From contig JAMPGX010000003.1 of NCBI GenBank assembly GCA_023663725.1, positions 124,001 through 188,000 of the forward strand: a stretch of DNA of 64,000 nucleotides, read 5' to 3'. The position numbers and the translations under genes are program-made. The stretch is from a bacterium. GTDB taxonomy: Bacteria > Bacillota > Clostridia > Lachnospirales > Lachnospiraceae. Below, in pieces: positions 2,320-9,413 of this stretch (its first letter is position 1; each line of letters opens with the position of its first letter). The notes beneath the pieces are model-generated. The model did not search any database. It saw only the letters and a list, made by a program, of their open reading frames with translations, and had not been told where the DNA came from.

Positions 2320-2472
2320 CCTCCTATTTTAAGTCGCTGCGCGACGGCGCTAAAGGGTGAAGTTCCTTCGGCGCACACCAGGGAGAGACAAATTTCATTC
2401 GTAAAGCATCTCATGAAATTTGCTCTCGTGTGCCTTCGCAACTTCACCGCGCTGCGCGACGGCGCTAAAGGG
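2320..2472 (-). repeat. Hairpin-plus-tail leader element, copy I, abutting the Shine-Dalgarno
   Basis: On the minus strand this reads: tail (2472-2451), then a long imperfect hairpin whose outer arms are GGTGAAGTT and AACTTCACC (2448-2440 and 2364-2356), then a second tail (2357-2334, CCCTTTAGCGCC followed by GTCGCGCAGCGA), then an A/T-rich run and AGGAGG (2325-2320). The same tail and flanking GCGCCGAAGG segment recur at 8464-8520 and 9256-9391. Every occurrence ends immediately upstream of a Shine-Dalgarno sequence. Confidence 0.8.
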
Positions 2473-2507
2473 CGTCCAACGAAACGCAAGCTGATCTTAT
2501 ATAGAGA

Positions 2508-2536
2508 ATAATACGTGTTTTAGTCTGGCATGTCAA
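2508..2536 (-). promoter_or_regulatory. Sigma-A promoter for the 1542-2312 gene
   Basis: On the minus strand TTGACA (2536-2531) is followed after 17 bases by TATTAT (2513-2508). The predicted transcript has a leader of about 190 bases that contains the whole hairpin repeat before the start codon. Confidence 0.65.
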
Positions 2537-2577
2537 TAAAGTGTTCCTAAGAAGAATATAAAAAAAGAATAAATTGA

Positions 2578-2606
2578 TTGCAAGTTTGAGGGTTCTGGTA
2601 TATCAT
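2578..2606 (+). promoter_or_regulatory. Possible sigma-A promoter for the DUF6106-like gene
   Basis: TTGCAA (2578-2583), a 17-base spacer and TATCAT (2601-2606), with TGGTA just upstream of the -10. It lies 55 bases before the next start codon. The match is moderate. Confidence 0.4.
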
Positions 2607-2660
2607 CTTAGTATGAACCGATGTTAAGCGGTCGAATATGGATGAAGGACAGGTATATTT

Positions 2661-3158
2661 ATGAGTGAAACATATGTGGAATGTCTGGTGAAGGCTAAAT
2701 CAAACATGGCGCTTAAGTTGTTGAAGTATCTGTTGATTGGCCTCACGGCTGTGTTTGTGTTGCTAATGCTTTTGGGTGTTGTCGTGGCTATTCTCGCAGG
2801 GGCAGCCACGGGCATCGGCGCCTACTTTCTGAACCTGTATTCTGATCTGGAGTATGAGTATCTGTATCTGGACAAGGAGCTGGTGATTGACAAGGTTATG
2901 GCCAAGAGCAAGCGCAAGCGCGTGGCCACCTATCAGGTTGACCGGATGGAGATCATGGCGCCGATTCATTCCTATCGGTTGGACAACTATAAGAACCGCC
3001 AGGTGAAGGTGAAGGATTACAGTATCGGTGAAGAGCTGAAGCCGGATCTGCGCTATGCCGTGTATTACGAGGGCGGCGAGAAGCTGATTCTGAGCCCCTC
3101 CGAGCAGATGATCAAGGCGATTCGCAATGTCGCGCCCAGAAAGGTTTTTACAGATTAA
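2661..3158 (+). CDS. DUF6106-like membrane protein
   Basis: A 165-residue protein with one long hydrophobic region (about residues 17-55; LLKYLLIGLTAVFVLLMLLG then a glycine-rich stretch) that could form one or two membrane helices. A soluble, basic C-terminal domain of about 110 residues follows. It resembles the DUF6106 family found near guaB in Lachnospiraceae; this is recalled, not searched. The C-terminal part (KELVIDKVMAKSKRKRVATY and LRYAVYYEGGEKLILSPSEQ) has the look of a bPH-type beta domain. The function is unknown. It sits 95 bases upstream of guaB, which has its own promoter. Confidence 0.75.
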   Translation: MSETYVECLVKAKSNMALKLLKYLLIGLTAVFVLLMLLGVVVAILAGAATGIGAYFLNLYSDLEYEYLYLDKELVIDKVMAKSKRKRVATYQVDRMEIMAPIHSYRLDNYKNRQVKVKDYSIGEELKPDLRYAVYYEGGEKLILSPSEQMIKAIRNVAPRKVFTD

Positions 3159-3186
3159 AAATATAGGAAAAAACGCAAATTGACAG

Positions 3187-3215
3187 TTGACATCGGCTGT
3201 CAATTTTGTTACACT
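3187..3215 (+). promoter_or_regulatory. guaB promoter with overlapping inverted repeat
   Basis: TTGACA (3187-3192), 17 bases, TACACT (3210-3215). A 7-base inverted repeat TTGACAG (3180-3186) and CTGTCAA (3197-3203) brackets the -35 box, a position where a repressor could block RNA polymerase. No protein can be assigned to it from this window. Confidence 0.7.
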
Positions 3216-3253
3216 CGAATGCACAATAAATACATAAAACAGGAGGAGAGAAA

Positions 3254-8291: not shown

Positions 8292-8298
8292 ATAAGTA

Positions 8299-8386
8299 AT
8301 CGTTACACGACTGGCGGAAGACAGTGGAGCTGTTATGGGATGACCCATGGGGAGTGCAAACGTAGAATAAGCCGACCGCCTGGGCA
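8299..8386 (+). ncRNA. ZTP/ZMP riboswitch (pfl motif)
   Basis: The leader holds the two conserved blocks of ZTP aptamers: ACTGGCG (about 8310-8316) in the 5' domain and CCGACCGCCTGGGCA (8372-8386) in the 3' domain. They are joined by a CGTT-a-CAC / GTG-c-AAACG pairing (8301-8308 with 8354-8362) and an ATGGG/CCCAT hairpin (8335-8348) followed by GGGGAG. The family binds AICAR monophosphate or triphosphate, which build up when 10-formyl-THF is scarce, and turns on purine and folate genes. The downstream genes encode exactly the enzymes that consume AICAR. The 3' block doubles as one arm of a terminator. Confidence 0.9.
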
Positions 8387-8421
8387 GCCACCTTGACTGT
8401 GTGTGCCCAGGTGGTTTTTTT
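8375..8421 (+). terminator. Riboswitch expression-platform terminator
   Basis: ACCGCCTGGGCA (8375-8386) pairs over 12 positions (one G-T) with TGCCCAGGTGGT (8404-8415), followed by seven Ts. The 5' arm is the conserved CCGCCTGGGC of the ZTP aptamer, so ligand binding would sequester it and allow read-through. This is a simple ON switch. Confidence 0.9.
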
Positions 8422-8463
8422 CACTCTCTTTAACAGCATATTCCCTTCGGGAATATGCCCGAT

Positions 8464-8520
8464 GCGCGCTGAAGGAACTCGCCCTTTAGTGCTGTCGCGC
8501 AGCGACATAAAATAAGGAGG
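8464..8520 (+). repeat. Hairpin-plus-tail leader element, copy II
   Basis: The segment contains GCGCTGAAGGAACT, then the tail CCCTTTAGTGCT + GTCGCGCAGCGA (8482-8505), then CATAAAATA and AGGAGG (8515-8520) of the next gene. It matches the right half of copies I and III. A separate 10-bp hairpin (GCATATTCCC / GGGAATATGC with a TTC loop, 8437-8459) stands where the left arm would be. Both sit between the riboswitch terminator and the purO-like gene, accounting for the 309-base gap. Confidence 0.75.
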
Positions 8521-8526
8521 TATTAT

Positions 8527-9234
8527 ATGTTATCACTCAAGCAGGAACTGGAGAACAATGCGTATCCCGGCAGAGGCATCGTGATCGGTCTGACGCCGGA
8601 CGCAAGCCAGGCGGTGACGGCCTATTTTATCATGGGAAGAAGCTCCAACAGCCGTAACCGCGTTTTTGTGGTCGAGGGGGAGGGCATTCGCACGCAGGCA
8701 TTTGACCCGTCCAAGCTGGAAGACCCCAGCTTGATCATCTATGCGCCGGTGCGGGTGCTGGGCAACAGTACGATTGTGACCAACGGAGATCAGACCGACA
8801 CCATCTATGAGGGCCTGGAGCGCCAGCTAACCTTTGAGCAGTCTCTGCGCAGCAGGGAATTTGAGCCGGACGGACCGAACTATACACCGAGAATATCCGG
8901 TATCATGCATATCGAGAGCGGTCGATTCAGCTATGCTATGTCTATATTAAAGAGCAATCACGGCGACGGCTCCTCCTGCGTGCGCAATACTTTCGCATAC
9001 GAGACACCGCTTGCGGGGGAGGGCCATTTTATCCATACCTATATGCATGACGGGAACCCGTTGCCCAGCTTTGAGGGCGAACCTAAGCATGTGGAGATGC
9101 TGGATGATATGAAGGCATTTGCCGACATGCTGTGGGAGAGCTTAAATGAGGAAAATAAGGTATCCCTGTTTGTTCGCTATATCGATATTGCAACAGGGGA
9201 CTATAGAACATGTATCATCAATAAAAACCAATAG
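8527..9234 (+). CDS. purO: PurO-like IMP cyclohydrolase
   Basis: A 235-residue protein of the IMP cyclohydrolase family first known from archaeal PurO. It closes the ring of FAICAR to give IMP, the last step of de novo purine synthesis. Recognisable features are the N-terminal NAYPGRGIVIGLTPD, the segment TAYFIMGRSSNSRNRVF and later GDQTDTIYEGL. With the AICAR transformylase just downstream it replaces the bifunctional PurH found in most bacteria. AGGAGG lies six bases before the ATG and is joined directly to the dispersed leader repeat. Transcription should be governed by the ZTP riboswitch. Confidence 0.9.
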   Translation: MLSLKQELENNAYPGRGIVIGLTPDASQAVTAYFIMGRSSNSRNRVFVVEGEGIRTQAFDPSKLEDPSLIIYAPVRVLGNSTIVTNGDQTDTIYEGLERQLTFEQSLRSREFEPDGPNYTPRISGIMHIESGRFSYAMSILKSNHGDGSSCVRNTFAYETPLAGEGHFIHTYMHDGNPLPSFEGEPKHVEMLDDMKAFADMLWESLNEENKVSLFVRYIDIATGDYRTCIINKNQ

Positions 9235-9255
9235 CTTTGCGGTAACTTACAGACA

Positions 9256-9391
9256 GGTAATGTCGCGAGGGCGTACAAGGGCGCGCCGAAGGGACTTTAC
9301 CCTTTAGAGCCGTCGCGCAGCGAAGTAATGTCGCGAAGGCATACGGATGCGCGCCGAAGGGACTTTACCCTTTAGAGCTATCGCGCAGCGA
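9256..9391 (+). repeat. Hairpin-plus-tail leader element, copy III: two tandem 68-bp units
   Basis: Two adjacent 68-bp units (9256-9323 and 9324-9391). Each has a left arm (G)GTAATGTCGCGA, a right arm GCGCGCCGAAGGGACTTTACC and the tail CCCTTTAGAGC + C/T-R-TCGCGCAGCGA. GGTAAtGTC pairs with GACtTTACC. The second unit is followed by TTTTAAAT and then AGGAGG (9400-9405). The units differ mainly in the loop (GCGTACAAGG against GCATACGGAT). Confidence 0.85.
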
Positions 9392-9413
9392 TTTTAAATA
9401 GGAGGAATCAGTG

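Follow-up and report, generated by a model that had tools for sequence, protein, structure and literature searches.

Small palindromic repeats of a Lachnospiraceae genome, probably mobile and inserted within the Shine-Dalgarno sequences of host genes

The stretch of DNA analysed here (the window; 64,000 nucleotides (nt) of a Lachnospiraceae genome, the home genome G000, 3.63 Mb, with an assembly that is 96% complete) contains three genes immediately preceded by members of a repeat family, designated E1, that combine hairpins with a conserved tail. An earlier note, made from the sequence alone, called two of these genes purO-like and AICAR transformylase, correctly according to Pfam (PF07826 and PF01808, respectively), and labelled the third a membrane protein. 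Its five tails are all present (five matches to the tail pattern in the window, 0.01 expected from shuffled sequence), with one of them lying at 2449-2472, not 2451-2472, and the two near 2.4 kb being on the minus strand. The array at 9256-9391 does consist of two tandem units of exactly 68 bp, both of which are internally deleted forms of a 115-nt hairpin-plus-tail found intact at 2334-2448. At all three loci the last tail is followed, as the note had it, by a short A/T-rich stretch (9-10 bases) and the GGAGG of a Shine-Dalgarno (SD) sequence, with start codons at 2312 (minus strand), 8527, and 9411 or 9414, and, of the ordinary promoter or riboswitch that it placed upstream, a sigma-70-like site was recovered at the 2.4-kb locus and a ZTP riboswitch before the purO-like gene. 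In the following list, bit scores refer to model R1, built from 21 full E1 units (long hairpin H2 plus tail), unless another source is named.

1542-2312, minus strand: gene labelled membrane protein in the earlier note
2320-2324, minus strand: GGAGG of the host SD, gene start at 2312 (sequence, open reading frame (ORF) list)
2325-2333, minus strand: A/T linker, probably the 3' end of E1 (sequence; boundary placed from two exact filled/empty pairs)
2334-2448, minus strand: E1 copy comprising long hairpin H2 and tail with mini-hairpin H3, 5' hairpin H1 missing (132.2 bits, this copy being one of the 21 used to build R1)
2449-2472, minus strand: E1 copy cut down to its tail, the older copy of the stack (tail pattern minus its last base; weak match of 15.4 bits at 2449-2477)
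2536-2508, minus strand: sigma-70-like site, 11/12 matches (three promoter-like sites there, 0.8 expected)
8297-8392, plus strand: ZTP riboswitch before the purO-like gene (Rfam match at gathering score, 50.7 bits)
8434-8458, plus strand: probable remnant of a second family, E2, CAGCATATTCCC..GGGAATATGC (comparison with E2 copies by eye only; model R2 has no match in the window)
8459-8481, plus strand: 3' arm of E1 hairpin H2, 5' arm lost (sequence; match at 8410-8505 of only 25.7 bits)
8482-8505, plus strand: E1 tail with mini-hairpin H3 (tail pattern)
8506-8515, plus strand: A/T linker up to A^GGAGG (sequence)
8516-8520, plus strand: GGAGG of the SD of the purO-like gene, start at 8527 (sequence, ORF list, Pfam PF07826)
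9256-9323, plus strand: E1 copy of 68 bp, H2 internally deleted (65.8 bits)
9324-9391, plus strand: E1 copy of 68 bp, H2 internally deleted (59.6 bits)
9392-9400, plus strand: A/T linker, probably the 3' end of E1 (sequence)
9401-9405, plus strand: GGAGG of the SD of the AICAR transformylase gene, start at 9411 or 9414 (sequence, ORF list, Pfam PF01808)

The home genome contains 66 E1 tails (35 forward, 31 reverse) and no match to the reversed pattern used as a control; when up to four substitutions are allowed, there are 67 tails in the loci examined. Full-length E1 is a non-coding sequence of approximately 172 bp with three hairpins and an A/T-rich 3' end (e.g., CTTTAAATA). Full-length copies start with the 5' hairpin H1 (GTCCAGC..GCTGGAC, opening GTCCAGCTAAGAAATGTCAAG); the long imperfect hairpin H2 (GGTAAAGTCGCGAAGG..CGAAGGGACTTTACC) is followed by CCCTTTAGNGCYRTCGCGCAGCGA, at the end of which lies the 4-bp mini-hairpin H3 (TCGC-GCA-GCGA). 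H1 starts number 49 at stricter matching and 58 with looser matching and more loci; the distance from H1 to the next junction is 170-174 bp in 35 of the 46 cases measured, and an A directly precedes the H1 start in 51 of 58 copies. In shorter copies, either sequence at the 5' side or the central portion of H2 is missing (the latter at 9256-9391, L028, and L035).

With one tail that borders an unread run left out of the 67, 44 tails of the home genome are the last of their array. All but one are followed, in the sense orientation, by a start codon 17-29 nt downstream (ORFs of at least 40 codons), the exception (L027_2875) having AGGAGG behind the tail and a called start 60 nt away; the distance to the next start, which the earlier note proposed to check, does not place copies mostly away from start codons. 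Likewise, 43 of the 44 are followed by at least five of six matches to AGGAGG (the exception is L029); a copy on contig C26 with a full R1 match and no tail by pattern stands outside the 44 sites. A wider set of 215 distinct tails from pattern and model scans, mostly in other genomes, gives the same picture: 115 are followed by an SD and a start codon, 56 by another tail, 8 by an SD only and 8 by a start only, while 2 are at contig edges and 26 are followed by neither SD or start nor tail, of which 19 run into E2 and two (L048, L132) are taken as chance matches. The genes behind E1 in the home genome are of many families (Pfam matches for 34 of the 40 proteins scanned, out of 44), including BipA, RRF, leucyl-tRNA synthetase, IspG, MutL, NAD synthase, an RNA methyltransferase, NifU, malic enzyme, BacA, and four ABC transporter ATPases. 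At L033 (approximately 3079-3350, minus strand), the ORF upstream of the tail looks by eye like a serine-hydrolase/beta-lactamase-fold gene cut where the tail starts, as if a deletion had ended there.

Orthologues were sought for 39 of the 44 genes in the three genomes nearest by their purH-like protein (G040, 96%; G082, 95%; G021, 94%), and at least one leader was obtained for 31. E1 is absent from the orthologous leaders at 27 of these 31 sites; at the remaining four it is shared with G021 only and is partly decayed. This comparison uses E1 calls alone, the rough regular-expression label for E2 having been set aside (a false positive at L226, a miss at L166). For example, AGGAGGTATCC before leuS is common to G000, G040, and G021, with elements in front of it in G000 only; the bipA leader of G082 reads TATATTTAGGAGG; and the purO-like gene of the window lacks E1 in all three relatives, G021 having other sequence there. 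Thus, the check for empty sites that the earlier note suggested reveals neither the same sequence in all relatives nor a lack of other copies, and the note's proposal of a mobile or amplified module agrees with the copy number, the E1-free orthologous leaders, a patchy distribution among species, and an exact insertion of 172 bp.

Two pairs of filled and empty sites are exact. L038 reads GTTCTATCAGGA/E1/GGAGGAATC where G040 (L293) reads GTTTTATCAAGA/GGAGGAATA with a gap of 0; only an A is common to both sides of the insertion, and GGAGG is always on one side. L202, of genome G041, reads GACTTTAAATA/172 bp/GGAGGATAAAATG where L054 and L102 read GACTTTAAATAGGAGGATAAAATG, with flanks identical to those of L054 at 193/200 and 290/300 positions; in this case the SD already had an older E1 in front of it, and the second copy went in between the two. 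Filled and empty leaders have GGAGG and the spacer to the start in common, as AGGAGGTATCC before leuS and GGAGGATAAAATG on both sides of the 172-bp comparison show; of the sequence next to the gene, it is just the A/T linker, as far as the A preceding GGAGG, that comes with the element. As empty sites have the same SD, the suggestion that the element carries its own ribosome-binding site was rejected, although one pair (L153/L144) stays ambiguous. Target duplications of AG, ATA, or YAG were considered and discarded as inconsistent between copies (by eye). On this comparative evidence, E1 is mobile and occupies an existing ribosome-binding site instead of supplying a new one; the insertion site appears to be A^GGAGG inside the host SD, that is, directly 3' of CCTCC on the bottom strand.

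The distance from SD to start is 4-10 nt in 43 genes with E1 and 4-13 nt in 50 native orthologous leaders, and the predicted accessibility of the SD is equal (means of 0.48 for filled and 0.46 for native leaders, P = 0.68, some native leaders being counted twice as they come from overlapping stretches). Sequestration of the SD by the hairpins was rejected on these grounds; in silico, insertion looks neutral for initiation, which would fit an element in a safe harbour better than a regulon.

E1 is not alone at this position. E2, of approximately 100 nt, begins with CAG and ends with CGGAACT and an A/T-rich linker before GGAGG. In other species it is found in the same leaders as E1, namely those of purH-like genes (G040, G082), bacA (G021, G082), and a nadE-like gene (G082), and it lies between E1 and the SD in L144 compared with L062. 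Among 20 E2 copies from a search of the family, some of them in G000, 10 are followed by an SD and a start, 3 by another element, 3 by a start only and 2 by an SD only, with 1 followed by neither and 1 at an edge. Match counts per genome from models R1 and R2 are lower bounds. In the genus, E1 is present in 18 and E2 in 22 of 101 genomes, with at least 8 E2 matches in G000, and E2 occurs in six other genera among 299 genomes of the family, G000 being the seventh positive. E2 is present in 17 of the 18 E1-positive genomes (P = 6e-14, with kinship ignored and the same 101 genomes assumed for both searches). The genus is probably that of Acetatifactor muris: a pattern scan of contigs has matches at least in A. 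muris DSM 23669 and many gut Lachnospiraceae and Clostridia among the matches listed, and one in Roseibium (L132), taken as chance.

These observations suggest that E1 is very probably a small non-autonomous mobile element of approximately 172 bp that inserts in one orientation between the A and the GGAGG of an SD, leaving the SD and its spacing to the start intact. On the bottom strand, E1 would sit directly 3' of CCTCC. Each new copy would be placed next to GGAGG, with older ones displaced upstream; tandem arrays and mixed stacks of E1 and E2 would be the result. GGAGG/CCTCC may be read as a DNA target, with insertions inside genes purged and SDs remaining as safe harbours: 362 of 497 AGGAGG motifs lie inside ORFs (in 307 kb of home sequence, by a rough ORF caller and in a sample enriched for E1 loci), so either insertions in genes are purged or the SD is recognised as such. 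One trans-acting enzyme may serve both families. As for chemistry, insertion in one orientation, hairpins near both ends, and a motif fixed on one side resemble single-strand transposition as described for PATEs in PMC3119063; single-strand (HUH-type, PATE-like) transposition by an unrecognised enzyme is our leading guess, a tentative one. There is close to an even chance, in our estimation, that E1 and E2 represent a new class of mobile elements with the SD core as integration site. Such a class would comprise at least two hairpin families, unrelated in sequence but alike in their A/T-rich 3' end and in the A^GGAGG target, for which the ribosome-binding site of nearly any gene would serve as a safe harbour; a single unrecognised enzyme would move them and spread with them through the Lachnospiraceae.

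Several results weigh against this interpretation. No Y1 transposase was found in G000 (PF01797, E-value 0.001 or better), and Y1 does not track E1 among the genomes (6 of 18 E1-positive and 30 of 83 E1-negative, 36 of 101 overall; P = 1.0); nor is there a match in G000 to the IS110 domain PF02371 (PF01548 was not searched), which is present in 9 of 18 E1-positive genomes (P = 0.17). Both Y1 and IS110 were rejected as drivers for want of association with E1. No coding copy of E1 was seen in the loci examined; a search for an autonomous copy, in which the E1 arms would flank an ORF, gave 133 arm pairs separated by 72-75 bases, one by 15, and one by 154, and the eight arms that lacked a close 3' arm were attributed to threshold misses, a contig end, or decay. 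Exact junctions are limited to two pairs, most others being diverged or holding other sequence; where the 172 bp were inserted, ATA ends both sides, which would allow a short duplication there; the pair L153/L144 could be read as an element bringing its own ribosome-binding site; and the co-occurrence statistic for E1 and E2 ignores phylogeny. A recognised 5' arm accompanies only 24 of the 66 tails, which simple cut-and-paste does not predict.

This surplus of tails would fit either loss of hairpins or target-primed copying, which is the main alternative chemistry and would leave position and mobility as proposed above. Here an element RNA would be reverse-transcribed from a primer, namely the bottom-strand 3' end that follows CCTCC; such retro-type copying, anchored at the 3' side as in target-primed reverse transcription, predicts an end fixed at GGAGG and variable truncation at the 5' side. 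The 3' end at the SD is indeed constant, and the home genome has 26 5' arms for its 66 tails (24 with a tail downstream, one in a full-length R1 match, and one running into an unread stretch). However, long DNA hairpins are also lost by deletion, as seen in the internal H2 deletions of the short copies, and full-length copies have a precise 5' junction too; we regard retro-type copying as rather unlikely. Another idea is that ordinary repeats insert widely and selection alone leaves those before SDs. The motif counts within ORFs mean that any DNA-target model needs purging of most insertions. If nothing but selection were at work, however, the copies between genes should lie in both orientations and at various distances from the SD. 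The exact pairs instead place the boundary precisely at GGAGG, and copies of E1 and E2, as well as stacked ones, lie directly against it, which makes this explanation very improbable.

Alternatively, E1 and E2 might be cis-regulatory RNAs, structured leaders kept for control of translation or mRNA stability and spread by recombination. Compensatory changes affect 26 of 32 pairs in 24 E2 copies and 5 of 35 pairs in the 21 full E1 units, but a paired 9-bp outer stem was the criterion by which the E2 copies were selected, so covariation of the outer pairs is not independent evidence, whereas that of the inner helices is. One 172-bp E1 copy with its leader folds well as RNA (z = -6.3), yet the bottom DNA strand of the same copy also folds well (z = -4.5), and structure alone thus does not point to RNA. 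Neither the gene content nor the absence from orthologues fits a regulon, which was rejected: the shared regulatory RNA of three genes that the earlier note offered as its other reading would now have to serve 44 genes of the home genome without common function, at 27 of 31 testable sites of which near relatives lack E1. With SD accessibility predicted to be the same, and with Rfam yielding only the ZTP riboswitch in the window at gathering score and no match on the elements of five element-bearing loci at a relaxed E-value, regulation in cis is an improbable reason for their presence.

As a kind, a small non-autonomous palindromic mobile repeat is already known; what is new is that the SD is the target, that the position is fixed, and that unrelated families have this target in common. 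PATEs and other IS200-IS605 relatives are described as short, non-coding, and numerous, with near-terminal palindromes, no terminal inverted repeats, and no target duplication (PMC3119063, PMC2817692). E1 is likewise short, multicopy, and devoid of coding capacity, with H1 near one end and H3, of different sequence, near the other; it differs in targeting the SD core and in that no Y1 transposase was found in its home genome or tracks it elsewhere. This comparison is one of features, no similarity of E1 to a known element having been shown. Classical miniature inverted-repeat transposable elements (MITEs) differ in that the ends of E1 (GTCCAGC and CTTTAAATA-like) are not inverted repeats and there is no consistent target duplication, and IS110-type non-autonomous elements in that the host has no PF02371 match. 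The BOX, RUP, and SPRITE repeats of pneumococci, according to the account in PMC3049150, are structured interspersed repeats that cluster and nest, BOX having variable tandem modules; E1 and E2 similarly cluster and insert into each other. For BOX and RUP the same source reports terminal inverted repeats, target duplications, and gene-disrupting insertions, whereas E1 and E2 abut the SD in sense. REPs, as presented in PMC2817692, are high-copy extragenic palindromes, many beginning with GTAG, that are linked to the single-strand-acting transposase RAYT; E1 is also a high-copy extragenic palindrome, but its home genome has no RAYT-like (PF01797) protein, and its arrays have one orientation whereas those of BIMEs alternate. 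Finally, the TAACTGA direct repeats of marine Beggiatoaceae share with E1 a single orientation just upstream of many start codons, but are described as tandem heptamers mostly replacing an SD (PMC4679880), whereas E1 and E2 are long hairpins that keep it.

No description of a mobile element targeting the SD was found in the openly licensed PMC literature, which, some of the searches having returned nothing because of strict term combinations, is weak evidence of absence. Harmless landing sites used by mobile elements include tRNA genes and rDNA. Another is attTn7 (PMC10969869). Ribosome-binding sites, present in front of a large share of bacterial genes, would offer a much wider niche. Many genes would acquire a structured leader at once through insertions of this kind, with the SD untouched, and these leaders could alter translation and mRNA decay and explain differences in leaders between close species. 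The question thereby made concrete is which enzyme reads GGAGG/CCTCC.

Other hairpins occur at the same place. At L044 and L204 (approximately 1500-1650, minus strand), a third hairpin, ATACTGC..GCAGTAT, lies between the E1 tail and the SD; L054 (GCGACTTTAAATAGGAGG) has none, and the ends of this hairpin would fit a TA-duplicating MITE. The purH-like leader of L190 (G089) has another long hairpin (GAATATATCCTGTG..CACAGGATATATTC) between the stop codon of the purO-like gene and the SD, so this position may be used by additional families as well. Behind the E1 tail of L047 (approximately 1500, plus strand), a short hairpin (GGAGATC..GATCTCC) directly precedes AATAGGAGG.

In the window itself, the ZTP riboswitch before the purO-like gene, which is expected biology, is present in G040 too. 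Upstream of it, positions 7201-8217 hold an ORF of 338 codons with a TTG start, which we take to resemble the Rpn/PD-(D/E)XK-type nucleases common in Lachnospiraceae.

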